A DNA stretch of 64,000 nt from Orenia metallireducens. GTDB taxonomy: Bacteria > Bacillota > Halanaerobiia > Halobacteroidales > Halobacteroidaceae. The position numbers were made by a program, and so were the translations under genes. Of this stretch, positions 15,075-48,269 are shown one piece after another. The number at the start of each line of letters is the position of its first letter. The first letter of the stretch is position 1. The notes below the pieces were generated by a model that saw only the letters and a program-made list of their open reading frames with translations, made no database searches and had not been told where the DNA came from. The stretch is from positions 1-64,000 of the forward strand of contig NZ_LWDV01000009.1 in the NCBI RefSeq assembly GCF_001693735.1, written 5' to 3'.

Positions 15075-15602
15075 TATTACCTCCCCTAACTAATAATTGA
15101 TAATAGTTAATAAATATCTAGAAAATAATATATATCTACTATATATATTATAAAAATTACTAACTCTTTTCAACTATTATGTATATAGAATGTGAAAAAG
15201 AATTTAAATATCTAGCCACAGATTAACATAGATGAAACACGGATAAGTATAGCTAATAGCTGTAGTCAAATAATCACTCCAAGATTAAATACATTGGCTA
15301 GGGCGTTGTGGTTAACAATTGCTTTGTTTTTTTATTTCACAGTTGGATGACTATAACTTAATAATTTTTAATATCAAATCTTTATCAAGTTCTATATATA
15401 TTAATTAATTATTCATTTTCTTTACTTTCTAGGTGAAATAATTATGTTGTTATAGAAATAAAGATTGATGTTTCATAATATACTTGTTATAATTGAAATA
15501 TATAATTTCTTGCAATACGGGTATAGACCGGTACACCTTGAATCAACTACTTTTGTATCTGGAATTTATTTATAAAGTAGAATAAGAAACAGGAGGGATA
15601 TT
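15075..15602. other. Divergent intergenic region upstream of the GntR regulator
   Basis: This is 528 bases without an ORF. The left part has a degenerate CACAGATTAACATAGATG / ACACGGAT segment (15217-15243), of a kind also seen near 36910. The right part holds the predicted GntR operator at 15520-15537 and an AGGAGGG ribosome binding site before the regulator gene. Confidence 0.5.
15518..15539 (+). promoter_or_regulatory. Predicted GntR operator at the regulator's own promoter
   Basis: GGTATAGACC (15520-15529) is immediately followed by a second half-like GGTACACC (15530-15537). The decamer matches the sites before the ABC and porin operons and fits the TGGT...ACCA-type operators of the HutC/NagR subfamily. 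It is about 70 bases upstream of the regulator start, implying autoregulation. Confidence 0.65.
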
Positions 15603-18054: not shown

Positions 18055-18074
18055 GTAGTGGTATACACCACAAC
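18055..18074 (+). promoter_or_regulatory. Predicted GntR operator 1 of the ABC operon
   Basis: Core GGTATACACC (18060-18069) lies within TAGTGGTATACACC, the same 14 bases found at 30384-30397. The flanks GTAGTGGTAT and its partner GTTGTGGTGT give 8 of 10 matching inverted-repeat positions. Confidence 0.72.
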
Positions 18075-18169: not shown

Positions 18170-18204
18170 TATAATTTTTTTGAGTATGGTGGTATACACC
18201 TGTA
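18170..18204 (+). promoter_or_regulatory. -10 element and predicted GntR operator 2 of the ABC operon
   Basis: TATAAT (18170-18175) is followed 15 bases later by GGTATACACC (18191-18200). An operator at about +9 would block transcription. No good -35 hexamer is seen. The same TATAAT-to-operator spacing recurs at 30366/30388. Confidence 0.65.
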
Positions 18205-18514: not shown

Positions 18515-19849
18515 ATGAAAAAAGATAGTTTAAAGAGTTTAGCTATTATGGGGATGTTGATTTTTGTGCTATTATTATCAGCTTGTTCATCAAAGGCACC
18601 TGAAACTTCTCAAACTCCAGCAAATAATGAAAAGGTGGCAGAATCTACCGAAAACACCGATTCAGGTCCAATAACAATTAAGGTTGCTTCATGGGCAGAT
18701 GAAGCTATGGTAGATGTTGTTATCCCTGCTTTTGAAAAGAAATATCCTAATATTAAAGTTGAGCCAGTAATAACAGAGATTAATGAACATCATAATTCAT
18801 TGTTAACTAAGATTGCAGCTGGTGCAGAGGTTCCAGATGTAGCATTTTTCGAAATTGCTCACATTGGAAAATTTTCTGGTAAAGGTGGGTTTGTAGATTT
18901 GTCAAAAGCACCTTATAATGCAACTCAATATAAAGATAAAATTGTTCCTTATGCATGGTCGCAAGGAATGACTCAAGACGGTAGAATGCTTGGTATTCCA
19001 ACAGATATAGCTCCTGCTACTATCTTTTATAGAAAAGATAAGTTTGATGAATTAGGGGTAAGTATTGATGATATTAAGACTATGGAGGATTGGATTGAGG
19101 TTGGAAAGAAATTTGCTAAAGATATAGATGGAGATGGAACTAATGATAGATGGTTAATAGCAGATGCAACAAATATTTATAATATGTATGCTAAGAGTGG
19201 TGGAACAAGATACTTTGATGCTGAAGGAAATTCTATAGTTGATTCTCCAAACTTTGTAAAGGCTTTTGAAATGGCTAAGAAAGTTAGAGAGTTAGGTTTA
19301 GATGCTGGAATTGGAGAGTGGAGTAATGAATGGTATGCAACATTCCAAGAAGGAACAGCATTAATGGCACCTTCAGGAGCTTGGTTAGGTGGACATATTA
19401 AAGGTTGGATAGCTCCAGATACAGCAGGCAAATGGAGAGCGACTAACTTCCCTGATGGAATGTATGCAAGTTGGGGAGGATCCTTTGCTGGTATTCCAGC
19501 AGATGCTAAGCATAAAGATGCTGCTTGGAAGTATATTCAATTTGTTGCTACAAGACCAGATATTCAATTAGCACAGTTTAAAGCTTATGATATGTTTCCT
19601 TCTTTAACAGAAACTTATGACAGTCCAGTATTTGATGAAGGTGATGAATTTTATGGTGGTCAGAAGGTTAGAAGACTCTGGGCAGAAACAGCAGCAGAAA
19701 TACCAAATGTTATTACAAACGTTAATGATATGATTGCTGAAAGAGCTTTAGGAACTGCTTTGACTGAAGTTTTAGAAAATGATAAAGATCCTAAAGTAGC
19801 ATTAAAAGAAGCTAAAAAGATTATTGAAAGAAAGACTCAAAGAAGATAA
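18515..19849 (+). CDS. ABC transporter sugar-binding lipoprotein (family 1 extracellular solute-binding)
   Basis: A 444-residue binding protein with a lipoprotein signal peptide (K-K-D then a hydrophobic core and the L-S-A-C lipobox at 21-24). A Ser/Thr/Asn/Glu-rich linker and a MalE/UgpB-type fold follow, e.g. I-T-I-K-V-A-S-W-A near residue 53 and D-V-A-F-F-E-I. It captures oligosaccharides for the two permeases encoded next. AGGAGG lies upstream of the ATG, after a long regulated leader. Context suggests beta-1,3-glucan oligosaccharides as ligand, but this is inferred from neighbours rather than binding-site residues. Confidence 0.93.
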   Translation: MKKDSLKSLAIMGMLIFVLLLSACSSKAPETSQTPANNEKVAESTENTDSGPITIKVASWADEAMVDVVIPAFEKKYPNIKVEPVITEINEHHNSLLTKIAAGAEVPDVAFFEIAHIGKFSGKGGFVDLSKAPYNATQYKDKIVPYAWSQGMTQDGRMLGIPTDIAPATIFYRKDKFDELGVSIDDIKTMEDWIEVGKKFAKDIDGDGTNDRWLIADATNIYNMYAKSGGTRYFDAEGNSIVDSPNFVKAFEMAKKVRELGLDAGIGEWSNEWYATFQEGTALMAPSGAWLGGHIKGWIAPDTAGKWRATNFPDGMYASWGGSFAGIPADAKHKDAAWKYIQFVATRPDIQLAQFKAYDMFPSLTETYDSPVFDEGDEFYGGQKVRRLWAETAAEIPNVITNVNDMIAERALGTALTEVLENDKDPKVALKEAKKIIERKTQRR

Positions 19850-19859
19850 GTAATAAGTA

Positions 19860-19881
19860 GGGGTCGTAAATTTACGACCCC
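19860..19881 (+). other. Intercistronic hairpin after the binding-protein gene
   Basis: GGGGTCGTAAA and TTTACGACCCC form an 11-bp perfect palindrome between the binding-protein and first permease genes. There is no U-tract, so it more likely stabilises the upstream mRNA segment and lets the binding protein be made in excess than terminates transcription. Confidence 0.7.
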
Positions 19882-19902
19882 TTAAAAGAAGGAGGTTAGA
19901 AT

Positions 19903-20811
19903 ATGAGATTGAGCAAGAAAGTGGCACCATATATTTTTGTTTCACCATTTTTTATTCTTTTTGCTGTATTTGGGATTTTCCCAATTTTATTCTCTTTTTA
20001 CTTAAGTTTTAATATGTGGGATGGAATGTCTGCTATGAGGTTTGTCGGTCTTGGTAATTACAAATATGTTTTAAGCGATCCTTTATTTTGGAAATCACTT
20101 TACAATTCATTCGTTATCTTTGCTTTAACTACAGTTCCTCAGCATGTAATAGCACTATCTTTGGCATTTATTTTAAATTCAGGTTTAATAAAATTTAAAG
20201 AGTTCTTTAGATCTGCATACTTTTTACCATATATAACCTCTGCTATAGCAGTAGCTATGATATTTGGGCTTTTATTGGGTCAACAGTTTGGAATATTAAA
20301 TACTATTATAAAGCTATTGGCTACTTTTCCACCTATTAAGTTCTTATTTGATTTATTTAATATTCAATTACCAATAGGGTGGGTGACTAAACCTGAATGG
20401 ATTAAGCCTTCAATTGCTCTATTGATAACATGGAAATTTACAGGTTGGAATATGATTATTTATTATGCTGGGTTACAAAAGATACCAGAAACTTTATATG
20501 AAGCTGCTCGAGTTGATGGAGCTAACTTACGCCAGATTTTCTTTAAAGTTACTTTGCCCTTATTAAGACCTATTATCTTCTTTGGGGTTACAATGTCTAT
20601 TATTGGTAACTTACAGATCTTTGCCGAAGCTAGACAACTAGTTGGTGCTACAGGTGGAGCATCTAATGCTGGTTTAACTACAGCAATGTACTTATATAAT
20701 ACTGGTTTTGAGACCCTAGATTTTGGAGCAGGGAGTGCGATGGCCTATATTCTCTGTTTTATAATAGTTCTATTAAGTTACTTTAATAATAAATTCTTTA
20801 GAAGTGAATAG
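19903..20811 (+). CDS. ABC transporter permease, MalF/UgpA type
   Basis: A 302-residue inner-membrane permease with six hydrophobic segments and the EAA loop L-Y-E-A-A-R-V-D-G-A-N-L-R-Q-I-F-F-K-V-T-L-P near residue 200, which contacts the ATPase. AAGGAGG precedes the ATG. It follows the binding-protein gene and is followed 17 bases later by the second permease, forming a carbohydrate uptake class 1 importer. No ATPase gene is in the locus. Confidence 0.95.
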   Translation: MRLSKKVAPYIFVSPFFILFAVFGIFPILFSFYLSFNMWDGMSAMRFVGLGNYKYVLSDPLFWKSLYNSFVIFALTTVPQHVIALSLAFILNSGLIKFKEFFRSAYFLPYITSAIAVAMIFGLLLGQQFGILNTIIKLLATFPPIKFLFDLFNIQLPIGWVTKPEWIKPSIALLITWKFTGWNMIIYYAGLQKIPETLYEAARVDGANLRQIFFKVTLPLLRPIIFFGVTMSIIGNLQIFAEARQLVGATGGASNAGLTTAMYLYNTGFETLDFGAGSAMAYILCFIIVLLSYFNNKFFRSE

Positions 20812-20828
20812 ATAAGGAGGGGAAATAG

Positions 20829-21710
20829 ATGGAGAAGATAGATGTGGAGTACAATGAAATTGGTACTTCAAAGGTTAATACTGAAAAAGTTTGGAGTAAG
20901 ATAAAGACAGGACTGATGTATTTTGTTCTGGTATTGGGGGTAGTAATTACTATATTCCCTTTTTATTATATGCTTGTATTAGCTACTAAAAGTAACGCAG
21001 AAATTTTTAGTTTTCCTCCACCACTCTGGTTTGGAGATTCTTTTTCTGATAATCTAAGTAGATTATTGAGTGTTATGCCTTTTTATAGAAATATTTTAAA
21101 TAGTATATTTGTAGCAACGGTAGCTACAATTGCTACTGTATTCTTTTGTTCTTTGGGAGGTTATGGTTTTGCCAAATATGATTTTAAGTATAAGGAGAAA
21201 TTATTCTTCATAATGCTAGCAACAATGATGATTCCTGGATTGTTATCTATTATTCCATGGTTTATCATGATGACCAAATTTGGATGGGTAAATACATTTA
21301 AACCTTTAATTATACCAGGAATGGCTAATGCTTTTGGTATATTCTTAATGAGGCAGTTTATGGAGGATATTCCAGATGAAATTATAGAAGCGGCTAGGAT
21401 AGATGGCTGTGGAGAATTTGAGATATTCTTTAGAATTATTCTACCGATGAGCTTACCTGGATTAGGTACTTTAGGACTTCTAACCTTCCTTACTTCTTGG
21501 AATAATTATATGGCAGCATTATTGATTTTACAAGACAAGGCAATGTATACGATTCCAGTGGCTCTTTCCAAATTAGGAGGAAAGGTAGATAATGATTGGG
21601 GAGCACAAATGGTAGGGACAACTTTAGCTATTGCACCAATTATAATCGCCTTTGTAGCTGCTTCTAAACAGTTTATCTCTGGAATAACTGAAGGTGCAAC
21701 TAAGGGATAA
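20829..21710 (+). CDS. ABC transporter permease, MalG/UgpE type
   Basis: A 293-residue permease with a short cytoplasmic N-terminus (about 25 residues) and six membrane segments. The EAA loop is I-I-E-A-A-R-I-D-G-C-G-E-F-E-I-F-F-R-I-I-L-P near residue 190. It partners the preceding permease. AAGGAGGGG precedes the ATG. The ATPase must be a shared MsmK/UgpC-type protein encoded elsewhere. Confidence 0.95.
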   Translation: MEKIDVEYNEIGTSKVNTEKVWSKIKTGLMYFVLVLGVVITIFPFYYMLVLATKSNAEIFSFPPPLWFGDSFSDNLSRLLSVMPFYRNILNSIFVATVATIATVFFCSLGGYGFAKYDFKYKEKLFFIMLATMMIPGLLSIIPWFIMMTKFGWVNTFKPLIIPGMANAFGIFLMRQFMEDIPDEIIEAARIDGCGEFEIFFRIILPMSLPGLGTLGLLTFLTSWNNYMAALLILQDKAMYTIPVALSKLGGKVDNDWGAQMVGTTLAIAPIIIAFVAASKQFISGITEGATKG

Positions 21711-21758: not shown

Positions 21759-23135
<1,377 letters not shown>

Positions 23136-23220: not shown

Positions 23221-25956
23221 ATGGCAGAAGAAAGATGCAAAGCTTGGGAGTTTATTGGAAAGAATGGGGAGTTTAGATTAGAAGAAGCAGATAAGAGTAG
23301 TTATCTCTACTTTCCCTTAAGCAATGAAGCGGGGATGATGTCTGTGGTTACTCCTAAGCTACATGGAGATATTAAGACAAGTCAGAATACTTTTGCTTTA
23401 ATGCCAGTTTCTGTGGAGGACTTGCATAATACTAAATCAGCTAGAAACTTCTGGTTGAATATAGATGATGAGATAATATGGTCTGCTACAGGGAATTCAG
23501 CGCAGCAGATAGCTCTACATTTTAATCCCGAAGATGAGAAGGTTACTGTAGAAGCTGGCTTATTGTGGCATAAGGTTATTAGAGAGAATGAGAAGTTGGG
23601 AATTAAATCGGAAATAACTAGTTTTGTTCCAGCTAATGATGATACAGTAGAGTTGATGGAGGTTAAAATCACCAATATAGGAGAGAAAGATAAGAAGATA
23701 ACTCCTACAGCAGCCATACCTATCTATGGTCGGTCAGCTGATAATCTACGAGATCATCGACATGTGACCTCTTTGTTACATAGGATTAAGACTATAGATA
23801 GTGGTATAGTTGTCAACCCAACACTATCCTTTGATGAGCGGGGGCATCAAATTAATGATGTAAGCTATGGAGTTTTAGGGTCGAATCAAAATGGAGAAAG
23901 ACCTGTAGGGTTCTGCCCAATTGTAGAGGATTTTATTGGCGAAGGTGGAAATTTGGAGTGGCCAAAAGCTATTGTTAAGAATTTAGATGTCTATTGCCAA
24001 GCAGGAAAAGAATTAGAAGGCTTTGAATCTATTGGAGGACTAAGGTTTAAAGATACTATATTAAAAGCTGGAGAAGAAGAATCGTATATAATCGCTATAG
24101 CTATTGGTGAAAACGTTGATATTGTGGATAGCTTGGCAGAAAAGTACTTAAATAAGGACTTATTTGATAATTATCTAAGTCAAAACAGAGCTTATTGGGA
24201 AGAGAAGATTAATAAAGTACAATTTAAATCTGGTAATCCAGATTATGATAACTGGATGAAATGGGTTACTTTACAACCGATTTTAAGAAGAATTTATGGT
24301 TGTTCCTTCCTTCCACATCATGATTATGGTCGTGGGGGAAGAGGATGGAGAGATTTATGGCAAGATTGTTTAGCTCTTCTGTTGATGGAGCCAGAAGGGG
24401 TAAGGGATTTATTATTGAATAATTTTGCAGGGATTAGAATTGATGGGAGTAATGCTACTATTATTGGTTCTAAGCCAGGAGAGTTTATTGCTGATAGAAA
24501 TAATATTAGTAGGGTATGGATGGATCATGGCTCTTGGCCATTCTTAACTACTAAGTTATATATCGACCAGAGTGGAGATATAGACTTCTTATTAGAAGGG
24601 CAGACCTACTTTAAAGATGCTCAGATCTATCGTTCTAAGAGGAATGATGAAAACTGGGAGCCTGAAGATGGTAATAAATTATTAGATAGAGAAGGTAATA
24701 TTTATAAAGGAAGTATTTTAGAGCATATGTTAGTTCAGCATCTGACATTATTCTTTAATGTAGGAGAGCATAATAACTTTAAGCTAGAGGGTGCTGACTG
24801 GAATGATGGTTTAGATATGGCTGAAGAACGAGGAGAGAGTGTAGCTTTTACGGCTTTATATGCTAGTAATTTATTGGAGATGGCTAATTTATTACGTGAG
24901 TTAGCAGAAAGAAGGGAGATTAATAAATTAGAGATTGCCAGAGAGATGAAGCTCTTATTAGATACATTAAATAATAAAGTAGATTATGATTCAGTAGAAG
25001 CTAAGCATAAGCTATTAGGTCAATATTTTGATAGCTGTGTTAGTAGAGTTTCAGGTGATAAGGTTGAGATTTCTATTGAAGAATTGGCTAATGATTTAAA
25101 GGTAAAGGGTAATTGGATTATAGATCATCTGCGGAAGAATGAATGGATTAAAAATAATGAAGGTTATGAATGGTTTAATGGTTATTATGACAATGATGGG
25201 AAGCGCCTAGAGGGTGATCATCCATTAGGTACAAGAATGACTTTAACAGGACAGGTATTTACTATTATGGGTGGGGTTGCTACTGATGAGCAGGTAGAGA
25301 AGATTGTTAAAGCTGCTGATCATTATTTAAAAGATGATATAGTTGGTGGATATCGTTTAAATACCAACTTTAAAGAGTTAAAGACCAATCTAGGAAGGTT
25401 GTTTGGCTTTGCTTTTGGGCATAAAGAGAATGGAGCAATGTTCAGTCATATGGCTGTAATGTATGGAAATGCCCTTTATCAACGTGGTTTTGCCAAAGAG
25501 GGCTATGAGGTTATAAATTCTATTTATAGACATTGTAAAGAATTTAAGACAAGTAGAATATATCCTGGTATACCAGAGTATATTAATCAACGCGGAAGAG
25601 GTCTATACCACTACCTGACAGGTTCTGCTAGCTGGCTGTTGTTAACAGAAGTAACTCAAGTTTATGGAGTTAGAGGGGAGTTAGGCAACTTAGTCTTGAA
25701 CCCTAAATTATTAAAGAAGCAGTTTGATAATGAGGGGAATGCCAACATCTATACTCTTTTTGCTAATCGACCTATAAATGTAATCTATAAGAACCAAAAG
25801 GAGCTTGAATTTGGTGAGTATAATATTATAGATATTATAATAAATGATGAAGAGATTAATTTTGAAATAAAGGATCAATCTGCAATAATTAAAAAAGAGT
25901 TAATAGAAAGATTATCTTTAGATGATGTTAATGAGATAGAGGTTATCTTGGGTTAA
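23221..25956 (+). CDS. Glycoside hydrolase family 94 phosphorylase, probable laminaribiose phosphorylase
   Basis: A 911-residue GH94 phosphorylase without a signal peptide. The acidic motif A-D-W-N-D-G places the general acid at Asp529 with Trp527 two residues before. An upstream P-H-H-D-Y-G-R-G-G-R-G-W-R-D-L-W-Q-D segment (about 362-379) is the GH94 phosphate/sugar site region. GH94 members split beta-linked glucose disaccharides with phosphate to give glucose 1-phosphate and a sugar. The length is close to the roughly 910-residue laminaribiose phosphorylase type rather than the roughly 810-residue cellobiose enzymes. Surrounding beta-1,3-glucanase genes favour laminaribiose, but the specificity is inferred. 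Confidence 0.88.
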   Translation: MAEERCKAWEFIGKNGEFRLEEADKSSYLYFPLSNEAGMMSVVTPKLHGDIKTSQNTFALMPVSVEDLHNTKSARNFWLNIDDEIIWSATGNSAQQIALHFNPEDEKVTVEAGLLWHKVIRENEKLGIKSEITSFVPANDDTVELMEVKITNIGEKDKKITPTAAIPIYGRSADNLRDHRHVTSLLHRIKTIDSGIVVNPTLSFDERGHQINDVSYGVLGSNQNGERPVGFCPIVEDFIGEGGNLEWPKAIVKNLDVYCQAGKELEGFESIGGLRFKDTILKAGEEESYIIAIAIGENVDIVDSLAEKYLNKDLFDNYLSQNRAYWEEKINKVQFKSGNPDYDNWMKWVTLQPILRRIYGCSFLPHHDYGRGGRGWRDLWQDCLALLLMEPEGVRDLLLNNFAGIRIDGSNATIIGSKPGEFIADRNNISRVWMDHGSWPFLTTKLYIDQSGDIDFLLEGQTYFKDAQIYRSKRNDENWEPEDGNKLLDREGNIYKGSILEHMLVQHLTLFFNVGEHNNFKLEGADWNDGLDMAEERGESVAFTALYASNLLEMANLLRELAERREINKLEIAREMKLLLDTLNNKVDYDSVEAKHKLLGQYFDSCVSRVSGDKVEISIEELANDLKVKGNWIIDHLRKNEWIKNNEGYEWFNGYYDNDGKRLEGDHPLGTRMTLTGQVFTIMGGVATDEQVEKIVKAADHYLKDDIVGGYRLNTNFKELKTNLGRLFGFAFGHKENGAMFSHMAVMYGNALYQRGFAKEGYEVINSIYRHCKEFKTSRIYPGIPEYINQRGRGLYHYLTGSASWLLLTEVTQVYGVRGELGNLVLNPKLLKKQFDNEGNANIYTLFANRPINVIYKNQKELEFGEYNIIDIIINDEEINFEIKDQSAIIKKELIERLSLDDVNEIEVILG

Positions 25957-26076: not shown

Positions 26077-26517
26077 ATGGAGGCTCACAAAGAATTATTA
26101 GAAGTAAAAGAGTATATTGATGAAGGGTATAAGCCTGTAATTGATTATGGTCAGTGGAGAGTAGCGATTTTAAATTACTGTGATGAGTTACTTCCTCAAA
26201 AGATTACTAAGATGCAAAAGCATCTTCAGACCGATGAGGTATTTATCTTATTAGCAGGTAAATGTATCTTATTTATTGGTGAAGGTGATGAATCGGGGGT
26301 TACTAAGATACATGCTCAAGATATGGAGCCACGGAAGATGTATAATATTAAGCAAGGAGTATTGCACACCCATACTTTAAGTCAAGATGCTATGGTCTTG
26401 ATTGTAGAGAATAGAGATACAGATTTATCCAATTCGCCAGAGGTAGATTTAAGTGAAACTCAACAGGATAAATTGGTTGAGTTAACAAAATCCCTTTGGA
26501 ATAACAATAACAACTAG
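26077..26517 (+). CDS. Small cupin-like protein between two phosphorylase genes
   Basis: A 146-residue protein with a single cupin-like domain. Candidate metal ligands are His49, Glu54, His97 and His99, in the patterns K-H-L-Q-T-D-E-V-F-I-L-L-A-G-K and K-Q-G-V-L-H-T-H-T. No signal peptide is present, so it is cytoplasmic. GGAAGTGG lies before the ATG. It sits between the GH94 gene and the larger phosphorylase gene, probably in the same operon. It could be a sugar-binding, epimerase/mutarotase-like or regulatory cupin; the family function is not recognised. Confidence 0.72.
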   Translation: MEAHKELLEVKEYIDEGYKPVIDYGQWRVAILNYCDELLPQKITKMQKHLQTDEVFILLAGKCILFIGEGDESGVTKIHAQDMEPRKMYNIKQGVLHTHTLSQDAMVLIVENRDTDLSNSPEVDLSETQQDKLVELTKSLWNNNNN

Positions 26518-26597
26518 ATAAAAAATATAGCCGTTTTATAAGTAGTTATTTAAAGAAATAGTATTAGGAATTGATAAGTTATAAGGAGGTAGATAAA

Positions 26598-29500
26598 ATG
26601 TCTCAAGATTTCTTCTTAAATAAAGATGGAAGTTTTGTTATAGAGAATTACCAGAACAAACGTACTTTTGCAAGTTTTTTACCTGGTATTGCTGGCAAAT
26701 TGGGAATTCCTATCTGGGCTTTTTATGTTAATCGTGGTCAAGGAATTGCTAGCTTTGGATCAAAGGATAAGGATAATCCAATTATGGAGTTTTATCCAGC
26801 TAATAAATCTTATCAAAATGTTGAAACTAAAGGCTTTAGAACCTTTATTAAACTCAAAAAAGATGGAAAAGAACTTGTCTATGAACCCTTTAGAAAGTTA
26901 GTTGATGGTGTGTCCACTAAAATGACTATCTCCCTCCATTCACTAACTATTGAAGAAGAGAATTTAAACTTAGGATTCAAGGTTAAGGTTACTTACTTTA
27001 TCTTACCTAATGAGAATTTTGGTGCTCTAGTCCGGAGGGTTAAATTTCAGAATATTAGTGAGATAGAGCAGAAAATAGAGGTCTTAGATGGGATGCCAAT
27101 CGTTATCCCTTATGGTATGGAAAATGGGGCATTAAAAGAGGTGAGTCAGACAATCTCTGCTTGGGCAAAGGTCTATGCTTTTGAAGATAAGACCCCTTTT
27201 TATCGTTTAAGAGCTTCTGCTGAGGATGAGGCTGAGGTTAAAGAGATGAATGCAGGTAACTTTTATATTTCTTTTGTTAAGCAAGAAGAAAACAATCAGT
27301 TATTGACCCCTGTGGTAGATCCAGATTTGGTATTTGCTGAGATGACTAACTTAGAAGAGCCAGTAGGCTTTGTTAGAAATAGATTGGCTAATTATAGTGG
27401 AGAGCAAATCTTAGAGAATCGTTTCCCGATGGCTATGGCTGCTGTTGAACATAATTTAGCGCCAAAAGAAGAGATAGAAATCAATTCAGTTTATGGACAC
27501 CTTGCTAATCAAGATAGATTATTAGAGGTTAAGGAGAAGTTATTGACTGTTGATTACTTAAATCAAAAAGAGGAAGAGACGGTACGAATTCATAATTATT
27601 ATGCTGATCATATCTTTACTGTAAGTGGTCAACCTACTTTAGATGCCTATAGTCGCCAGACATTTATAGATAACTTATTACGTGGTGGATTTCCAATCAG
27701 CCTAGGAAATAAAGAGAAGACTTATCATATCTTCTCCCGTAAGCATGGGGATTTAGAGCGAGATTATAACCATTTCCTATTAGAGCCTACTTACTATTCA
27801 CAAGGTAATGGTAACTTCAGAGATGTAAATCAGAATCGGCGTTGTGATAACTTCTTTAATCCAAGTGTTAAAGAAGATAATATTAAGGTTTTTGCTAACT
27901 TGATTCAAGCTGATGGATATAATCCATTGGTAATTGAAGGAAGCAAATTTTATCTGGCAACTGATGAAGCTAAGGATAAAGTATTAGAGCAAGTAGATGA
28001 AAGTAGTAAAAAAGTTTTAGCAAAAAGATTGAATAAGGCATTTACCCCTGGAGAAATTGCTGTATTCATAGATGATTTCAATCTAAATATTAAGCTACCT
28101 ATTGAAGAATTTATTGATTTATTAATAGATAATTCTGACTCTTGGACTGAGGCTAAACATGGTGAAGGCTATTGGATAGATCATTGGACTTATACTTTAG
28201 ATTTAATTGAAAACTATCTAGCTATTTATCCAGAGAATTTGGAGAAGTTATTATTTGGTGAGGGCTATACCTTTTATGATAATTTTACTAAGGTCTTGCC
28301 AAGGAGTAAAAAATATCTCTTAACTGATAAGGGACCACGCCAATATGAAGCTGTTTATGAAGATGATCAGAAAAAAGAGCTAATTTCTAATAGAGATAGA
28401 TTACCTTATTGTGTTAGAAAAGATAAAGGAGAAGGTGAGATTTATCGTACCAGTTTAATAGCTAAGCTACTTACCTTAGTAGTAAATAAAGTATCTACTT
28501 TAGATCCTTATGGTGTTGGGATTGAGATGGAGGCCAATAAACCAGGCTGGTATGATGCCCTTAATGGATTACCTGGGATCTTTGGTTCTGCTATAGCAGA
28601 GACTATGGAGTTAATGAGACTTGTGGAATTCTTAAAGGTTTCCTTAGAAGAGTTAGGATTAGATGGTAATCAGGTAATTAAGTTACCAAAAGAGCTTTAT
28701 AGTTTTTATCAAGGTTTAGAAGATGCTTTAGATGTCTGGACCAATAATCAAGATAATTTTAAATATTGGGAAGTAGCTACTTCTTTAAGAGAAAGTTATC
28801 GTGATGAAGTATTTATGGGCTTTGCTGGGGCTGAAAAAGAGTTGACTATCGAAGAACTTAAATCTTTCTTTACTAAGGTACTAGATAAGTTAAATTATGC
28901 TCTTGAAGCTGCTAAAGAGGAGGATACTGAATTATTTACTATGTACTTCTCCTATGAAGCTGTTGACTTTGAAGAGACTGGAGAGTACTCAACTAAAGGA
29001 TTATCTTATGTTAGAGTTAAGGAATTCAAACAGCATAGATTACCTGCCTTCTTAGAAGGTCAAGTAAGGGCTATGAAGATATTAAAAGATAAAGAAGAAG
29101 CTCGTAAGTTACATGAGAGTGTCCATAATAGTGATTTATATGATCAACCTTTAGGGATGTATCGAGTTAATGGAGATATCTCTAGTGAATCCCATGAGAT
29201 TGGTCGTGCTAGGGCATTTAGTCCAGGCTGGTTAGAGAATGGCTCTATCTGGTTGCATATGGAGTATAAATACCTATTGGAGCTATTAAAGTCTGGATTA
29301 TATGATGAATATTATCAAGCTATTGACTCTGCTTTAGTTCCTTTCCAAGACTCTAAAATCTATGGACGTAGTATACTAGAGAATAGTTCCTTTATTTTAA
29401 GTACTCTTAATGGAGATAAGAAGAATCATGGGCGTGGATATATTGCTCGTTTAAGTGGTTCTACTGCTGAGTATATCCATATGTGGTCATTAATGTGCTT

Positions 29501-29864
29501 TGGTGATAAACCATTTACTATAAAAAATAAAGAGTTAGTTTATAAGCCTAATCCTAAGTTGGCTAGTAAGTTATTTACTAAAGAAGATAAGAGAGTTAAA
29601 ATACAAGTCAATGAATTTAAAGAGATAGAGGTAGATATTCCAGCCAATAGTTTTGCATATCGTTTTTTAGGTAAGACTTTAGTAGTCTATCATAACCCTA
29701 AAGGAGGCAATACTTTTGGTGATGATAAAGTAGAGATAAACAGCTATAAGTTATTGACTAAAAAAGGTGAAGAGGTTGTAGTTGAAGAATCAGAAGTAAG
29801 AGCTGACCTTGCTAAAGAAATTAGAAGAGGTGAGGTTAGTAGAATAGATATTTTCTTAAGCTAA
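26598..29864 (+). CDS. Large beta-glucan phosphorylase, GH161 or GH94-like (probable beta-1,3-oligoglucan phosphorylase)
   Basis: A 1088-residue cytoplasmic protein of the clan containing GH94, GH149 and GH161. The N-terminus has F-L-P-G-I-A-G-K-L-G-I-P and Y-V-N-R-G-Q-G-I-A-S-F-G, typical of the large oligoglucan phosphorylases. A candidate catalytic motif is K-P-G-W-Y-D-A-L-N-G-L-P-G (Trp651, Asp653). Start choice: AAGGAGG (26583-26589) precedes ATG 26598; the upstream TTG 26571 has no site. Context with GH16, GH3 and laminaribiose phosphorylase favours GH161 beta-1,3-glucan phosphorylase. A 1,2-beta-oligoglucan phosphorylase of GH94 is the main alternative. It would release glucose 1-phosphate from imported oligosaccharides. 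Confidence 0.8.
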   Translation: MSQDFFLNKDGSFVIENYQNKRTFASFLPGIAGKLGIPIWAFYVNRGQGIASFGSKDKDNPIMEFYPANKSYQNVETKGFRTFIKLKKDGKELVYEPFRKLVDGVSTKMTISLHSLTIEEENLNLGFKVKVTYFILPNENFGALVRRVKFQNISEIEQKIEVLDGMPIVIPYGMENGALKEVSQTISAWAKVYAFEDKTPFYRLRASAEDEAEVKEMNAGNFYISFVKQEENNQLLTPVVDPDLVFAEMTNLEEPVGFVRNRLANYSGEQILENRFPMAMAAVEHNLAPKEEIEINSVYGHLANQDRLLEVKEKLLTVDYLNQKEEETVRIHNYYADHIFTVSGQPTLDAYSRQTFIDNLLRGGFPISLGNKEKTYHIFSRKHGDLERDYNHFLLEPTYYSQGNGNFRDVNQNRRCDNFFNPSVKEDNIKVFANLIQADGYNPLVIEGSKFYLATDEAKDKVLEQVDESSKKVLAKRLNKAFTPGEIAVFIDDFNLNIKLPIEEFIDLLIDNSDSWTEAKHGEGYWIDHWTYTLDLIENYLAIYPENLEKLLFGEGYTFYDNFTKVLPRSKKYLLTDKGPRQYEAVYEDDQKKELISNRDRLPYCVRKDKGEGEIYRTSLIAKLLTLVVNKVSTLDPYGVGIEMEANKPGWYDALNGLPGIFGSAIAETMELMRLVEFLKVSLEELGLDGNQVIKLPKELYSFYQGLEDALDVWTNNQDNFKYWEVATSLRESYRDEVFMGFAGAEKELTIEELKSFFTKVLDKLNYALEAAKEEDTELFTMYFSYEAVDFEETGEYSTKGLSYVRVKEFKQHRLPAFLEGQVRAMKILKDKEEARKLHESVHNSDLYDQPLGMYRVNGDISSESHEIGRARAFSPGWLENGSIWLHMEYKYLLELLKSGLYDEYYQAIDSALVPFQDSKIYGRSILENSSFILSTLNGDKKNHGRGYIARLSGSTAEYIHMWSLMCFGDKPFTIKNKELVYKPNPKLASKLFTKEDKRVKIQVNEFKEIEVDIPANSFAYRFLGKTLVVYHNPKGGNTFGDDKVEINSYKLLTKKGEEVVVEESEVRADLAKEIRRGEVSRIDIFLS

Positions 29865-30143: not shown

Positions 30144-30180
30144 ATAGTGGTATAGACCTCTATAAGTAAACCAAATATGT
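30144..30180 (+). promoter_or_regulatory. Predicted GntR operator 1 of the porin-glucanase operon
   Basis: Core GGTATAGACC (30149-30158) is flanked symmetrically by ATAG and CTAT. A weak -10-like TATTAA (30129-30134) lies 20 bases upstream. It is the first copy of the duplicated operator cassette. Confidence 0.7.
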
Positions 30181-30365: not shown

Positions 30366-30419
30366 TATAATTTATTTTTGGAGTAGTGGTATACACCTCT
30401 ACAAGTAAACTTAATATGT
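30366..30419 (+). promoter_or_regulatory. -10 element and predicted GntR operator 2 of the porin-glucanase operon
   Basis: TATAAT (30366-30371) precedes GGTATACACC (30388-30397) by 16 bases. The extended site GTAGTGGTATACACCTCTAC (30384-30403 approx.) is an inverted repeat with 8 of 10 matching positions. It is the second copy of the cassette. Confidence 0.72.
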
Positions 30420-30661: not shown

Positions 30662-32602
30662 ATGAAAAAGATTTCCTTATTACTTACTTTTGTGTTAATT
30701 TGTTCATTAGCGTTACCTGCTTTTGCAGAGACAGAGATTGAATTTAATGGAGGTTTATGGTTTACTTTTGATGAATTTACAGAGGTTGATGGTAAACCTT
30801 TTTATTCAATGAATGGTAATACTAATATCTTTGGAACTGGTGATTGGAAGCAATCTACAAGTGATAATGGAAATGATAATCGAGAGAAGTTTGAAAGTCA
30901 GTTAGTATTGAATACTAAAATCAAAATAGATGATATTGTAACAATTGATGTTGGTTTTGAATCACTGACAGATGAGTTTGTTGGTTATCCTAACGGTACT
31001 GGAGCAACTAGAGTACAAGAGGCTCCAACTGTAAGAGATAATCCTCCAGTCCAGTTAAAGGACTTAACTCTAACTGCCGATACTCAATACGCCAAAATAA
31101 TAGCTACTAATAACTTTAATTATAATTTCAATGAAAGAGTTTTAGCTACTCAATTTGAAGATAACTGGGGAGAAATGAATCCTTATGGTGAAGGTATATT
31201 AGTACAGACTGATATAGCTGGAGTAGCTACTCAAGGATTTATCTTCCAAGCTACTAAGAGTCAAGCTGGTACTGCTAGTAGTGCTGGAGATGATATAATA
31301 GTTAATAATCATGAGACATTTAAGAAGGCAGATAAATTAATTTATGGTGCAGATTTGAAGAAGGATTTAGCTAAAGGAAAGGTTGGAGCTCTTATTATAA
31401 ATACTCATGATAAAAGTTCTGATGAACAAGGTGACAACTTTGATAAAGACCTTGATAACTTACATTTAGCCATTAATGGTGAGTATAGTCTGACAGATAA
31501 AGTTACTTTAAATGGTGAATTTATCACTGCTCAATATGGTGATGATGTAACAGAGGTTATGAACGTACATAACCTTCCTTACCCATCAACTGATTTTGGC
31601 CCTGAACACATTATTGGTTATGATTTAAGTGGTGCAGGTGCTAAGGAAGATACTGATATATTTGAGGTTGGTGCTACTGTCAAGCCATTACCTAATTTAA
31701 AGGTTAATACTTTTTATAAGAATGTAGGAGAGGATTATATAGCTGTAATTGGTGCAGACCATGATATGGATTCTTGGTTTGGAGATGCTAACTTTAATTA
31801 TGGAGATGGTAATGGATACGAGAAAGGTTTAGGTTTGAATGTAAGTTATGACTTGAAAACATTCTTTAACCCAACACTTACTTTAGATCTAACTAATTAT
31901 GAGATGACTAGAAGCCAATTAAATAATGCCCAAGATGATACAGAAAGAGAGATTGAAGCTGGTGTATCCTTTGGAGATGGACCTTGGAGTTTAGGAGCTT
32001 CATATAGAATTATGACTAGAGAGAATGATGACTTTGATGTAGATATGGAATATAATGACTTTAATGTAAATGGTTCATATAAGCTAATTAATGATGAAAG
32101 ATTAACAGCAGATATACATGGTGATATCAACTACTATACTGGTGATGATAAAGCTATTAACCAGAACTTCTCTACTGAAACTAGGTTTAAATTAGGAGCA
32201 GGAAGTAGCTATAAATTAAATGAATTGGTTACTTTGACTAGTAGTTATGACTTTGGTTATGCAACAGAAGATAATGATGTAATCAAAGATGCTAGTGGTC
32301 AACAACATTTAATTAAGTTAGGAGCAAGCTATAAGATTACTGAAAATACTAGCTTTACTGTAATGTATAAATATGACAACTATAATCTAGATAGAGAAGC
32401 TACTGCAGAAGAACTACAGAATTCAGTATATAAAAAAGAAGCAGAGCATCAATGGTACGATGGTGGAGAAAGTTGGGAACATGAACCTGCGGAACAGGGA
32501 GGTTATGCTTGGGATTATGGCCCAACTATCAAGAACGTTGCTCCAACTTATAGTGGATATACAACTCATGAGATTAAAGCTACTTATAATATAAACTTCT
32601 AA
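30662..32602 (+). CDS. Outer-membrane beta-barrel (porin-like) protein
   Basis: A 646-residue exported protein. Residues 1-22 form a signal peptide ending A-F-A. The mature chain is rich in alternating amphipathic strands separated by Asp/Asn/Gly turns, with many Tyr/Phe aromatic residues. It ends T-Y-N-I-N-F, matching the C-terminal Phe signature of outer-membrane barrels. No Pfam family was recognised by eye. It lies under two copies of the GntR operator and is followed by GH30 and GH16 genes, so it probably carries glucan oligosaccharides across the outer membrane. A surface glucan-binding role is the alternative. It is the clearest sign that the host is diderm. Confidence 0.75.
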   Translation: MKKISLLLTFVLICSLALPAFAETEIEFNGGLWFTFDEFTEVDGKPFYSMNGNTNIFGTGDWKQSTSDNGNDNREKFESQLVLNTKIKIDDIVTIDVGFESLTDEFVGYPNGTGATRVQEAPTVRDNPPVQLKDLTLTADTQYAKIIATNNFNYNFNERVLATQFEDNWGEMNPYGEGILVQTDIAGVATQGFIFQATKSQAGTASSAGDDIIVNNHETFKKADKLIYGADLKKDLAKGKVGALIINTHDKSSDEQGDNFDKDLDNLHLAINGEYSLTDKVTLNGEFITAQYGDDVTEVMNVHNLPYPSTDFGPEHIIGYDLSGAGAKEDTDIFEVGATVKPLPNLKVNTFYKNVGEDYIAVIGADHDMDSWFGDANFNYGDGNGYEKGLGLNVSYDLKTFFNPTLTLDLTNYEMTRSQLNNAQDDTEREIEAGVSFGDGPWSLGASYRIMTRENDDFDVDMEYNDFNVNGSYKLINDERLTADIHGDINYYTGDDKAINQNFSTETRFKLGAGSSYKLNELVTLTSSYDFGYATEDNDVIKDASGQQHLIKLGASYKITENTSFTVMYKYDNYNLDREATAEELQNSVYKKEAEHQWYDGGESWEHEPAEQGGYAWDYGPTIKNVAPTYSGYTTHEIKATYNINF

Positions 32603-32802: not shown

Positions 32803-34173
32803 ATGGATTTGAATAAAATCAAGGTAATCCAAACAGTAAAAGATACAGAGGATAGGTTAACAGAAAAGGATTCATTAACTTTTCAGAAAGACTATCAAGA
32901 GAATCTACCTTTGATAGAGATTAATAGGAATAAGAAGTTTCAGGAGGTTATTGGTTTTGGAGGTGCCTTTACAGAAGCAGCTTCTTCAACGCTAGATCAA
33001 TTGAGTCCCCAAAAGCGTCAAGAAGCGATAGATGCTTATTTCCACCCAGAAAAGGGTATTAATTATACCTTTTGTAGAACTCATATCAATAGTTGTGATT
33101 TCTCTTTAGGCAATTATGCTTATACTGAAACCCCTGGTGATGTAGAGTTAGAAGACTTTACAATTGAAAGGGATAGAAAGTCTTTAATTCCCTTGATTAA
33201 AGATGCTTTAAAGACTAAAGGTGAAGATTTTAAACTATTTGCTTCTCCCTGGAGCCCTCCTGCTTGGATGAAGACCAATGGGAGAATGAACAATGGTGGA
33301 AGCTTAAAGGATGAATATAGAGAAGTATGGGCAAAGTACTTTGCTAAATATATCAAAGAGTATCAAAAAGAAGGTATAGATATTTGGGGAGTAACAATCC
33401 AAAATGAACCAATGGCAACAACTCCTTGGGATAACTGCATTTATACTGATGAACAAGAGAGGGACTTTGTTAAAATCTTAGGGTCAACATTAAAAGAAGA
33501 GGGTCTAGAAGATATTAAGATTATAGTCTGGGATCACAATAAAGATATTATGAAGTCAAGAGTAGATACTATTATGTCTGATCCTGAAGCTGCTAAATGG
33601 GTTTGGGGAGTAGGTTTTCATTGGTATGGTCCAGAAGATAGTGAGTCTACAGTAGACAATGATGTGTTAGACTATACTTATGAGACTTATCAGACTAACT
33701 TAGTATTTACTGAAGGATGCAACCCTTATTACAATATTGATCAAGATAATTTAATTGGCGAGTGGTGGACTGGTGAGAAGTATGGTAGACATATTATTGC
33801 TGATTTAAATCACTGGACTGTGGCATGGTGTGACTGGAATATGTACTTAAATGAAGAGGGTGGACCAAATCATGTAGGAAATCTTTGTGATGCACCTATC
33901 ATGGCAGATAGGGAGAAGGATATTCTATATTACAATACGCCTTATTATTATCTGGGGCATTTTAGTAAATATATCTTGCCAGGTGCTAAAAGGATTGAAT
34001 GGAAGTCTGATATAGGAGAATTAAATATTACTGCTTTTGAAAATACAGATGGAAGTATAGCAGTTATAGTGATGAATGAAACCGATAAAGAACAGACCTT
34101 TACATTAAAGGATGGAGATAGAGCTGTTAAAGTAGTAAGTCCAGCTCATTCTATTCAGACATTGTTATATTAA
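32803..34173 (+). CDS. Glycoside hydrolase family 30 (beta-1,6-glucanase / beta-glucosidase type)
   Basis: A 456-residue GH30 enzyme with no signal peptide, hence cytoplasmic. Family marks are G-F-G-G-A-F-T-E-A (about 50), S-P-W-S-P-P-A-W-M-K, acid/base Glu202 in T-I-Q-N-E-P, nucleophile Glu304 in V-F-T-E-G-C, and a C-terminal beta-sandwich. Related GH30 enzymes include endo-beta-1,6-glucanases and glucosylceramidases. In this setting removal of beta-1,6 branches from imported laminarin oligosaccharides is the simplest role. AAAGGGG precedes the ATG. Confidence 0.93.
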   Translation: MDLNKIKVIQTVKDTEDRLTEKDSLTFQKDYQENLPLIEINRNKKFQEVIGFGGAFTEAASSTLDQLSPQKRQEAIDAYFHPEKGINYTFCRTHINSCDFSLGNYAYTETPGDVELEDFTIERDRKSLIPLIKDALKTKGEDFKLFASPWSPPAWMKTNGRMNNGGSLKDEYREVWAKYFAKYIKEYQKEGIDIWGVTIQNEPMATTPWDNCIYTDEQERDFVKILGSTLKEEGLEDIKIIVWDHNKDIMKSRVDTIMSDPEAAKWVWGVGFHWYGPEDSESTVDNDVLDYTYETYQTNLVFTEGCNPYYNIDQDNLIGEWWTGEKYGRHIIADLNHWTVAWCDWNMYLNEEGGPNHVGNLCDAPIMADREKDILYYNTPYYYLGHFSKYILPGAKRIEWKSDIGELNITAFENTDGSIAVIVMNETDKEQTFTLKDGDRAVKVVSPAHSIQTLLY

Positions 34174-34266: not shown

Positions 34267-36426
34267 ATGAATAGATTATTTTCTAAGAAGGGATTTGCTG
34301 TACTAATATTTTTAGTAATTGGCTTAGTAGCTGTGGTAGGATGTAATGGTAATGAGGTTAAAGGAGATATGTCTAAATTGACAGTAAGCATTACTGATGT
34401 TGATTCCGCAGATAGCCTAACAGCTACTGTAAAGATTTTAAAGGGTGGTAAAGAGGTAGGAAATAAAGAAGGAAGTAATGTACAATTTAATTTAGCGCAG
34501 GGCAACTATACAGTTGAGGTTATTGATGAGGCTTATGAAAGATGGACAAAGGATATATCTATAATAACTGATTCAATATTAGATGCTAAATTAAATGCCC
34601 TTAATCTAGTGGGCAATGGTACTTTTGATCAAGCATTATCAGATGCAGTACCAGCTGATGGTAGTGGAGACCTTCCTCAAGGAAGCGTAGACACAGAAGG
34701 TAGTTGGATCTATTTCCAAGGTGCTGGTGGCTCTGGCAATGCTACTATACAGGATGGAGCTATTAAAGTTGATGTAAGCCAAAATGATGCAGGATATTCT
34801 GTACAATTATTACAAGGTCCACTTACTTTAACTAGAGGAAGTAAGTATAAGGTTCAATTTAAGGCTAAAGCTAGTTCTGAGATGGATTTAACTGTTAAGG
34901 TTGGTGGAGTAGCAGATGCAAATTGGGGAGCTTATCTTCAAAAAAATGAAAGCTTAACAAGTGAATGGACTACTTATGAATTAAACTTCACAATGGAAAC
35001 AGAGACAAATAAGAATAGCCGGTTTGAGTTCTGGCTACTAAATCCTGGAACCTACTATATAGATGATGTTAGTTTAATTAAGACTGGGGAAGTAGAACTA
35101 GTAGATGAGGGGTCATTGACTGAAGCAGATGAAGATAAGGTAGAGAATTGGAAACTTGTTAAAGAGTATAGTTTTGATTCTAAGGTAGACTTAGCTGATT
35201 GGAGATTTGAAGTAGGAAATGGTCAGGCTAAGGGTATCCCAGGCTGGGGTAATGCTGAATTAGAGTATTATACTGATGGTGAAAATGCAGAGATAGTAGA
35301 TGGTAAATTAGTACTTACAGCTAAAGAAGAGAAAAGAAGCGATGAGTATGGAACTTATAACTATACTTCTACAAGAATGATTACTCAAGATAAGTTTGAA
35401 TTTACTTATGGTAGAGTGGAAATTAGAGCTAAACTTCCAGAAGGGCAAGGAATCTGGCCAGCTATTTGGATGTTAGGTGCTGATATAGCTGAGAACCCGT
35501 GGCCAGACTGTGGTGAGATTGATATTATGGAGTTAGTTGGTTATGAACCATCAACTGTTCATGGAACAATTCATGGTTCAGGACCGAGTAAAGGTAGTGC
35601 CTATACTTTAGAAGAAGGCAAATTCTCTGATGATTTCCATGAGTTTGCTTTAGAGTGGGATGAAGATGAGATTGAATGGTATGTAGATGATACTTTATAC
35701 CATGTAGCCAATGCAGCAGAAGTAGGAAGCACTTGGGTATTTGATCATCCATTCTTTCTAATCTTAAATATTGCTGTTGGTGGAAATTGGCCAGGTAACC
35801 CTGATGCTAGTACAAGATTCCCACAAACTATGGAGATAGACTATATTAAGATTTTTGAAGATACAAATTCAGAGTCAATTACTGGTCAAGAAGTATGGAA
35901 TAGTGAATATGAAGATAACTACGATGGAAATCATAGTTCAGAAGAACCTAATGCTACTTCAGTTAAAGCAGGTGTAATTGTTAATGGTAGCTTTGACAAT
36001 GAAATTGCCGATAAATTAGGTGTTTTAGGCAACTGGTATGTATGGTCTGGTGAAGGTGGAGCAGTCAGTGACTATGGTGTAGAAGATGGTGAGTTCAAGA
36101 TTGATGTTACTGCTCTTGGAGGTCAGACTTGGGCAATTCAATTTGTACAAAATTTAAAGTTAGATAAAGGAGATTATAAAGTCTCTTTTAAAGCAAGAGC
36201 AGAAGATGATAGAGATATAATAGTGATGGTACAAGAAGATGGAGGGGCATGGACTGTCTATGGTGAAACGAAGCCAACTTTAACTAGTGATATGACAGAG
36301 TATAGTTTCGATGTATCAATGAGTAGAGATGATAGTCCAAAATTAGTCTTCAGCTTAGGAAAGACTGAAGATGGAAGACCAACTACGATTTATATTGATG
36401 ATGTAAGTATTGAAGAAGTTAATTAA
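34267..36426 (+). CDS. GH16 endo-beta-1,3-glucanase (laminarinase), lipoprotein with flanking carbohydrate-binding modules
   Basis: A 719-residue lipoprotein (lipobox V-V-G-C at 23-26). Order: PEGA-like domain (about 35-110), CBM4-type module (about 115-275), GH16 catalytic domain (about 294-535) with E-I-D-I-M-E (nucleophile Glu417, Asp419, acid/base Glu422), a short linker, and a second CBM4-type module (about 565-719) ending Y-I-D-D-V-S-I like the first. The motif without the beta-bulge residues of lichenases plus W-P-A-I-W-M-L fits laminarinase. It is probably surface- or periplasm-anchored and is the initial depolymerase of the locus. Its ribosome binding site lies in a hairpin. Confidence 0.94.
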   Translation: MNRLFSKKGFAVLIFLVIGLVAVVGCNGNEVKGDMSKLTVSITDVDSADSLTATVKILKGGKEVGNKEGSNVQFNLAQGNYTVEVIDEAYERWTKDISIITDSILDAKLNALNLVGNGTFDQALSDAVPADGSGDLPQGSVDTEGSWIYFQGAGGSGNATIQDGAIKVDVSQNDAGYSVQLLQGPLTLTRGSKYKVQFKAKASSEMDLTVKVGGVADANWGAYLQKNESLTSEWTTYELNFTMETETNKNSRFEFWLLNPGTYYIDDVSLIKTGEVELVDEGSLTEADEDKVENWKLVKEYSFDSKVDLADWRFEVGNGQAKGIPGWGNAELEYYTDGENAEIVDGKLVLTAKEEKRSDEYGTYNYTSTRMITQDKFEFTYGRVEIRAKLPEGQGIWPAIWMLGADIAENPWPDCGEIDIMELVGYEPSTVHGTIHGSGPSKGSAYTLEEGKFSDDFHEFALEWDEDEIEWYVDDTLYHVANAAEVGSTWVFDHPFFLILNIAVGGNWPGNPDASTRFPQTMEIDYIKIFEDTNSESITGQEVWNSEYEDNYDGNHSSEEPNATSVKAGVIVNGSFDNEIADKLGVLGNWYVWSGEGGAVSDYGVEDGEFKIDVTALGGQTWAIQFVQNLKLDKGDYKVSFKARAEDDRDIIVMVQEDGGAWTVYGETKPTLTSDMTEYSFDVSMSRDDSPKLVFSLGKTEDGRPTTIYIDDVSIEEVN

Positions 36427-39273: not shown

Positions 39274-41112
39274 ATGCATCTTTTTTTTAGTTTAACTTTG
39301 ATTTTAATTACTTTAATTATAGGGTGTAGGAATAATGATGAATTAACTTTAGAGAAGAGCATTTATAGCGACCCTAATATTGAAATTGAAGCTAGAGTGG
39401 ATGATTTACTCAGCAAAATGACCTTAGAAGAGAAGATAGGGCAGATGGTTCAAGCTGAGAGAAATGGAATTGAAGAAGGAGATATAAAGAAATATAAGCT
39501 TGGGTCACTTTTAAGTGGAGGTGGGTCAGTTCCAAAAGGGAATACACCTAAAGCTTGGGTAGATATGTATAATAAGTTCCAAGCTGAAGCATTAAGTACT
39601 AGACTGACTATTCCTCTGGTCTATGGAGTGGATGCAGTTCATGGACATAATAATGTTAAAGGGGCAACTATCTTTCCTCATAATATTGGATTAGGTGCTA
39701 CTTTTGATGCTGACTTGGTAGAAAGGGTTGCCCAGATAACTGCTAAAGAGGTTGCAGCTACTGGTCTAGATTGGGACTTTGCACCTTGTGTTGCTGTTTC
39801 TCGTGATGAACGATGGGGGAGAGCCTATGAAAGTTTTGGAGAATCACCAGAATTACAAGAGCTTTTAGCAGGAGCCTATATAAGAGGATTACAAGGTCCA
39901 AATGCTGAGATGGGTGGGAAGTATGTTATTGCAACAGCCAAACACTTTATTGGTGATGGTGGAACTGATTGGGGCACAGGTGATGCGGGTTATATAATTG
40001 ATAGAGGAGATCTAACCATTGATGAAAAGAGTTTACGAGCAATTCATCTGCCTGGCTATATTAAAGCTATCGAAGAGAATGTAGGAACGATAATGGCTTC
40101 TTTTAGTAGCTATCAGGGTAAGAAAATGCATGCTCATAAGTATCTATTAACGGATTTATTAAAAGGTGAGCTTGGTTTTGAAGGATATATTATCTCTGAC
40201 TGGGAAGCTATGAATGAAATCGCTGCTCCTACTTATTATGATAAGATAGTCAAGTCAGTAAATGCTGGTGTTGATATGTTTATGGAGCCCTATAGATGGA
40301 AAGAGCTTATTGATGTTATGAAGAAGGCAGTTGATAATGGAGATGTGAGTATAGCAAGAGTTGATGATGCTGTCAGAAGGATTTTAAGAATTAAGTTTAA
40401 AGCTGGTTTATTCGAGAATCCATTGGCAGATAGTGAAGTATTAAATGAAGGTAGCTTTGGTTCCAAGGAGCATAGAGAGATAGCTAGAGAGGCTGTCAGA
40501 AAATCACTAGTTCTACTAAAGAATAAGGGTAATATATTACCTTTAACTAAAGATTATAAGGTTTATGTATCAGGTTCTAATGCTGATGATATAGGTAATC
40601 AATCAGGAGGTTTGACTATTGAGTGGCAAGGTAGAAGTGGTAATATTACTTCTGGAACTACAATCTTAGATGGTATAAAAGAAGCGATTAAAGGTCATGG
40701 AGAAGTGGTAGATGATATAAGTAAAGCAGATGTAGCTATAGCTGTAATTGGGGAAAGACCTTATGCTGAAGGCAAGGGAGATGATGGAGAGTTATCCCTT
40801 GGCTATCAAGATCTTCTTACTCTGCAAGAAATCAAGGAATCAGGAAAACCTGTAGTAGTGATTATGGTATCAGGTAGACCATTAATCATTAGTGATTATA
40901 TTGATGACTGGGATGCCTTTGTGGTAGCCTGGTTGCCAGGAAGTGAAGGCCAAGGGGTAGCTGATCTAATCTTTGGCGATTATAATTTCACAGGTAAATT
41001 ACCTGTATCTTGGCCAAGAAGTATTGATCAACTCCCTATTAATATAAATGATAAAGATTATAATCCATTATTTGAATATGGGTATGGATTAGAGATGGAT
41101 TTAGAAGATTAA
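39274..41112 (+). CDS. GH3 beta-glucosidase lipoprotein, 5' end possibly frameshifted
   Basis: A 612-residue GH3 glycoside hydrolase. Early residues form a hydrophobic segment ending L-I-I-G-C, a lipobox. The family regions L-S-K-M-T-L-E-E-K-I-G-Q-M, V-D-A-V-H-G, K-H-F-I-G-D-G, the nucleophile Asp309 in I-I-S-D-W-E, and the GH3 C-terminal domain are intact. It would cut short beta-glucans to glucose outside the cytoplasm. The start is odd: ATG 39274 lacks a ribosome binding site and a basic n-region, an in-frame stop sits at 39265, and a run of eight T follows at 39281-39288. Upstream ATGs at 39254 and 39261 encode Lys/Arg-rich beginnings that would join this frame by one T more or less. Confidence 0.88.
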   Translation: MHLFFSLTLILITLIIGCRNNDELTLEKSIYSDPNIEIEARVDDLLSKMTLEEKIGQMVQAERNGIEEGDIKKYKLGSLLSGGGSVPKGNTPKAWVDMYNKFQAEALSTRLTIPLVYGVDAVHGHNNVKGATIFPHNIGLGATFDADLVERVAQITAKEVAATGLDWDFAPCVAVSRDERWGRAYESFGESPELQELLAGAYIRGLQGPNAEMGGKYVIATAKHFIGDGGTDWGTGDAGYIIDRGDLTIDEKSLRAIHLPGYIKAIEENVGTIMASFSSYQGKKMHAHKYLLTDLLKGELGFEGYIISDWEAMNEIAAPTYYDKIVKSVNAGVDMFMEPYRWKELIDVMKKAVDNGDVSIARVDDAVRRILRIKFKAGLFENPLADSEVLNEGSFGSKEHREIAREAVRKSLVLLKNKGNILPLTKDYKVYVSGSNADDIGNQSGGLTIEWQGRSGNITSGTTILDGIKEAIKGHGEVVDDISKADVAIAVIGERPYAEGKGDDGELSLGYQDLLTLQEIKESGKPVVVIMVSGRPLIISDYIDDWDAFVVAWLPGSEGQGVADLIFGDYNFTGKLPVSWPRSIDQLPININDKDYNPLFEYGYGLEMDLED

Positions 41113-44455: not shown

Positions 44456-44471
44456 TTTGGAGGTGAGAATT

Positions 44472-45026: not shown

Positions 45027-45044
45027 TTAGTTAGGGTGAAGATC

Positions 45045-46547: not shown

Positions 46548-46564
46548 AGATAGGAGGAGTTAGG

Positions 46565-48267: not shown

Positions 48268-48269
48268 TT

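Follow-up and report, generated by a model that had tools for sequence, protein, structure and literature searches.

How fragments of polysaccharides pass through the outer membrane of diderm Firmicutes is hardly known; a study of OmpM in Veillonella concluded that this bacterium probably has no porins besides its OmpM proteins and that diderm Firmicutes couple uptake to tethering (PMC10628300). The question was raised here by a gene in the first 64,000 nucleotides of contig NZ_LWDV01000009.1 of Orenia metallireducens (hereafter the window, part of a 3.47-Mb genome), whose product had been predicted from the letters alone to be a sugar-regulated outer-membrane barrel: is it one, and what would it carry? 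The Halanaerobiales possess LPS outer membranes, with a single BamA in those analysed (PMC5007114), compared with four Omp85 matches in the present genome (C10:636360, C5:91994, C8:106808 and C9:708979). Together with the relatives found in Halanaerobiia, these Omp85 proteins bear out the outer membrane that the original prediction had assumed in a Firmicute. The genome also encoded one TonB receptor, away from the barrel locus. The features of the window are collected in Table 1.

Table 1. Features of the putative barrel gene, its candidate operators and the surrounding glucan locus (positions in the window).
Feature	Position	Strand	Details or basis
Predicted outer-membrane beta-barrel gene	30662..32602	+	646 aa; proposed beta-1,3-gluco-oligosaccharide channel
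Signal peptide, residues 1-22	30662..30727	+	Sequence; same kind in 6/6 orthologues
C-terminal strand IKATYNINF, Phe-ended, BAM-signal-like	32573..32599	+	Orthologue alignment
Most conserved stretch TNNFNYNFNERVLATQFEDNWGEMNPYGEG, residues 149-178	31106..31195	+	16/25 of residues 149-173 invariant vs 28% overall
GntR-type operator ATAGTGGTATAGACCTCTAT upstream of barrel	30144..30163	.	Motif search
GntR-type operator GTAGTGGTATACACCTCTAC upstream of barrel	30383..30402	.	Motif search
Operator core GGTATAGACC before gntR	15520..15529	.	Motif search
Operator before ABC binding-protein gene	18055..18074	.	Motif search
Second operator before ABC binding-protein gene	18189..18203	.	Motif search
GntR/HutC-type regulator (GntR + UTRA)	15603..16325	+	Domain matches
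Sugar ABC importer, with a lipoprotein as binding protein and two permeases	18515..21710	+	ATPase outside operon
GH1 beta-glucosidase	21783..23135	+	Family match
GH94 laminaribiose phosphorylase	23221..25956	+	1279 bits to PDB 6ggy
Small cupin-like protein	26077..26517	+	Weak NCBIfam match; kept in relatives' loci
GH161 beta-1,3-glucan phosphorylase	26571..29864	+	E 5.5e-248 to PDB 9qqk
GH30 glycosidase without signal peptide	32803..34173	+	Family match
GH16 laminarinase lipoprotein with two CBM4_9 domains (lipobox VVGC)	34267..36426	+	Domains
GH3 beta-glucosidase with lipobox (LIIGC)	39274..41112	+	Family match, sequence

The open reading frame started with ATG behind a GGAGG site, and its product began with the signal peptide MKKISLLLTFVLICSLALPAFA, cleavable before E. 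Six orthologues, including that of the window, could be aligned from end to end, 180 positions being invariant, and all six ended in Phe, with hydrophobic residues at positions -3, -5, -7 and -9 (IKATYNINF, VKATLTVNF, VKASYNITF). Alternating amphipathic segments were enriched in each family member over composition-matched shuffles (z 3.8-5.8), and the family average contained 20 strong alternating 9-mers, compared with 5.8 ± 2.2 in shuffles (shuffle maximum 12). Most control proteins of the window scored z <=1.4, but two rich in beta-sandwiches reached 3.1-3.2, so that alternation alone is no proof of a barrel. The most conserved stretch of the protein (residues 149-178) may possibly form a constriction or a sugar-binding loop.

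No curated family claimed the protein, whose own Pfam matches were all weak and below cut-off (DUF3187, the PelB barrel and DUF2490). Over the six members, the PelB_C barrel and DUF2490 were matched by all (best 2.8e-6 and 2.9e-5, respectively), DUF3187 by five, while DUF5777 and OMP_b-brl each drew a single member; the sole remaining match was a weak one to Big_7 (0.26) in one member. DUF2490 and DUF3187 are outer-membrane barrels. In profile-profile comparisons, the mature family matched local SLH/OmpM proteins in their barrel region (90%, E 1.4e-6, residues 509-570 only) and also the 470-residue porin-like proteins of the same genomes (73%, E 3e-5, 198 columns), with which it had a motif of the VGEDYIA/VGEKFAA type in common, whereas soluble controls (GH16, GH30, binding protein and lipoprotein) reached at most 0.2%. 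The barrel was thus probably derived from the resident porin stock. Neither the protein nor the family profile retrieved a meaningful match from the PDB. Judged from its sequence, the product is very probably an outer-membrane barrel, and what had been read from the signal peptide, the strands and the terminal Phe was corroborated by alignment, shuffles and profile comparison.

Two profile matches were discarded: one of 98% to the local 470-residue porins, due in part to the signal peptide and falling to 73% once it was removed, and one to 360-residue porins, which vanished without the signal peptide. The porin-like proteins themselves (about 390-470 residues; for example G000:C10:600540-602681 and G002:C1:1075154-1077844) are uncatalogued, some of them in tandem and ending in VSF, VKF or LAF, and probably represent another resident outer-membrane family of Halanaerobiia.

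The genes around the barrel gave the predicted glucan locus a more precise identity, the GH161 enzyme and the laminaribiose phosphorylase marking it as one for beta-1,3-glucan. GH94 and GH161 were located upstream of the barrel gene, and GH30, the CBM4_9/GH16 lipoprotein and GH3 downstream; no glucan synthase was recognised in the locus. Between the binding-protein and permease genes, a perfect 24-bp palindrome (AGGGGTCGTAAATTTACGACCCCT, 19859-19882) is perhaps an mRNA-stabilising or attenuating hairpin. Further along the window, a gene for a giant secreted protein of 2678 residues, repeat-rich in appearance (53571-61607), was located downstream of a cluster resembling type II secretion or type IV pilus systems (43454-53197).

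The five other orthologues (47-86% identity) all belonged to Halanaerobiia, including Halanaerobacter jeridensis and Halanaerobium saccharolyticum as identified by genome scan, and all were in beta-1,3-glucan loci. Across 59 genomes of the class, the barrel was present in six and GH161 in 22, all six barrel genomes being among the latter; 16 of the 22 GH161 genomes had no barrel, so that the use of beta-1,3-glucan does not require it. No relative was found in plasmid and viral collections. GH16 was found in 18 class genomes, two of which (G057, cut, and G058, fragmented) were left out of the count. Lipoboxes were called by a pattern search and by inspecting the N-terminal sequences; each of the six barrel genomes carried one or more GH16 proteins with a lipobox, but none of the ten GH16 genomes without a barrel did (Fisher p = 1.2e-4, with kinship ignored and the genomes not independent). 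In G058, a contig began with a lipoprotein GH16, and a barrel gene would fall beyond that contig end.

A second lipoprotein was encoded directly beside the barrel in the five relatives, but not in the window's own locus. Its CarboxypepD_reg domains were clear in four relatives and weak in the fifth. CBM4_9, Exop_C or SGBP_B_XBD-like domains also occurred in some of these lipoproteins, and in H. saccharolyticum the SGBP_B_XBD-like match exceeded the cut-off. Two lipoproteins beside a barrel (L017:10699-12237 and L019:12178-12978) carried a domain like the surface glycan-binding protein SGBP-B of Bacteroidota, above the Pfam cut-off in L017 and below it in L019.

By identity, the barrels fell into two groups, one comprising the window, G002, G003 and G035 (57-86%), the other G005 and G028, which share 64% identity and match the remaining barrels at 43-48%. 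No such split was seen for the enzymes, G005 being closest to G003 for both GH161 (76%) and GH30 (82%). The barrel therefore seems to have been exchanged alone between lineages, though within the same locus.

Concerning regulation, five copies of a near-palindrome with the core GGTATACACC or GGTATAGACC were present, one ahead of gntR and two each ahead of the ABC operon and the barrel, the two copies upstream of the barrel being near-identical. GTGGTATANACCNNT gave six rows in the window compared with 0.22 expected, two rows being one palindrome on both strands, and six of the 13 copies of GGTATASACC in the genome were located between 15.5 and 30.4 kb of the window. An operator-like site at 25600 was rejected, as it corresponds to conserved GH94 codons for RGLYHY, and five credible operators were left, at 15520 (gntR), 18060 and 18191 (ABC binding protein), and 30149 and 30388 (barrel). 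Other genomic copies of the core were near other GntR-family genes, indicating a motif type common to HutC-type regulators; we take it to resemble DasR/NagR sites. Promoter-like sites near the barrel were no more frequent than in shuffles. The claim that the barrel is controlled by the same GntR operators as the locus was supported for the window, where they are shared with gntR and the ABC importer, but not beyond it, since none preceded the barrel genes of the relatives examined, several of which carry LacI-type genes in the locus. On the sequences compared, the GntR operators before the barrel are local to O. metallireducens.

A second sugar locus of the same genome contained a genuine LamB (G000:C10:364811-366010; L116:8812-10512, - strand) with an N-terminal AMPK1_CBM/CBM48-like (starch-binding-like) domain, followed by genes for three lipoprotein GH13 enzymes, one of the pullulanase type. 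LamB was also present in four other genomes of Halanaerobiia. A layout of porin and lipoprotein hydrolases would thus serve both alpha-glucan and beta-1,3-glucan in this organism.

Altogether, the barrel is probably an inducible uptake channel dedicated to beta-1,3-gluco-oligosaccharides, i.e. laminarin fragments. This reading is supported by the restriction of the orthologues to beta-1,3-glucan loci, the association with lipoprotein GH16, the glycan-binding-type domains of lipoproteins next to the barrel in relatives, the operators in common with the importer, the apparent exchange of the barrel between lineages while it was kept in the locus, and the LamB layout of the same genome. The channel role, read from the locus context, is inferred, as are pore formation, substrate, direction, the placing of the lipoproteins at the surface, and the repressor action with its inducer. 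The protein would be assembled by BAM into an outer-membrane barrel of roughly 16-22 strands. At or near the cell surface, GH16 and GH3 enzymes that are lipid-anchored and bear carbohydrate-binding domains would cut laminarin, and the resulting oligosaccharides would reach the periplasm through the barrel by facilitated diffusion, to be imported by the binding protein and ABC permeases. The GH161 and GH94 phosphorylases, with GH1 and GH30, would then convert them to glucose-1-phosphate and glucose. By way of the common operator, the HutC-type GntR regulator may keep its own gene, the ABC operon and the barrel repressed until a sugar relieves it.

The strict association of the barrel is with lipoprotein laminarinases, and the family has long conserved stretches outside the alternating segments, which are unusual in plain porins; both would suit an outer-membrane barrel that is no sugar channel but a surface scaffold or a PopA-like plugged oligomer, holding the laminarinases or binding glucan. 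Such a role is unlikely, given that the closest relations are the OmpM barrels and porin-like proteins, that the operators are common with the importer, and that the candidate compared from Halothermothrix orenii, which we guess from its map position to be Hore_23180, reached a probability of only 1.4%. A plugged barrel of this kind has a modelled precedent in that species, where Hore_23180 belongs to the PopA superfamily of 16-strand plugged barrels forming radial oligomers (PMC12228718). OmpM serves Veillonella as a general porin (PMC10628300), and the sequence relation to it would also fit a general-diffusion porin for any small solute that sits in the locus by chance. However, all six genomes with the barrel, themselves only part of the GH161 carriers, have it in a beta-1,3-glucan locus and nowhere else, and it was apparently swapped between lineages while kept in the locus, which makes this reading distinctly improbable.

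A secreted or periplasmic beta-rich glucan-binding protein that forms no barrel would agree with two AlphaFold models, neither of which showed one but both of which were unusable (pLDDT 28 and 32), and with the alternation that beta-sandwich proteins also display. The conserved terminal Phe strand, the matches of all members to outer-membrane barrel models and the OmpM relation argue against it, as does the Pfam search, in which no carbohydrate-binding domain was found in the family, and it is thus very improbable. Even less credence is given to an exporter of cell-made glucan of the PelB or AlgE kind: the C-terminal barrel of PelB was the commonest Pfam match, but the locus is catabolic, with a sugar-binding importer, phosphorylases and hydrolases and no recognised synthase. 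Beyond the uptake channel itself, it is conceivable, though doubtful, that Halanaerobiia evolved from their own porin stock a modular Sus-like glucan machine without TonB or SusD, in which a dedicated barrel, exchanged between lineages as a separate module of the locus, is either joined or supplied by surface lipoproteins, namely laminarinases and a glycan-binding protein.

Membership of LamB, SusC and OmpM was rejected for the barrel protein in each case, as the diagnostic domains were missing. Like LamB and the lipoprotein GH13 enzymes of the same genome, it is a sugar-locus barrel beside lipid-anchored hydrolases, but no PF02264 match was found in its family and profile comparison aligned the signal peptide only. 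The C-terminal part is related by profile to OmpM, the SLH porin of diderm Firmicutes; in contrast to that general tether, the barrel protein lacked a Pfam match to an SLH domain at its N-terminus, has a longer barrel region and sits in a catabolic locus. Tandem phosphorylases, beta-glucosidases and an ABC importer are shared with the GH94-GH161 clusters of PMC6484121, for which no outer-membrane component was described (the phrase is absent from the main text), whereas the present locus has the barrel. Neither the barrel family nor a glucan uptake channel of Halanaerobiia was described in the literature searched, which covered few subscription papers.

Together with the LamB locus, the barrel locus suggests that another branch of diderm Firmicutes has dedicated sugar channels, one of them from an uncatalogued family, and that two-membraned, salt-loving Firmicutes evolved an equivalent of the known sugar porins by themselves. 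The role had been likened to that of SusC or LamB in a protein unlike both in sequence, and indeed no sequence relation emerged from Pfam or profile comparison. What the barrel has in common with SusC/SusD of Bacteroidota is its role, as part of a polysaccharide locus that includes surface lipoproteins, and the likeness extends to the SGBP_B-like domain above cut-off in the neighbouring lipoprotein of one relative. The differences are that no member of the barrel family matched a TonB-receptor or plug domain at E <= 1 and that SusD_RagB was found in 0/59 class genomes. The barrel thus appears to be an independent counterpart of the Bacteroidota glycan systems and offers a concrete candidate for testing.
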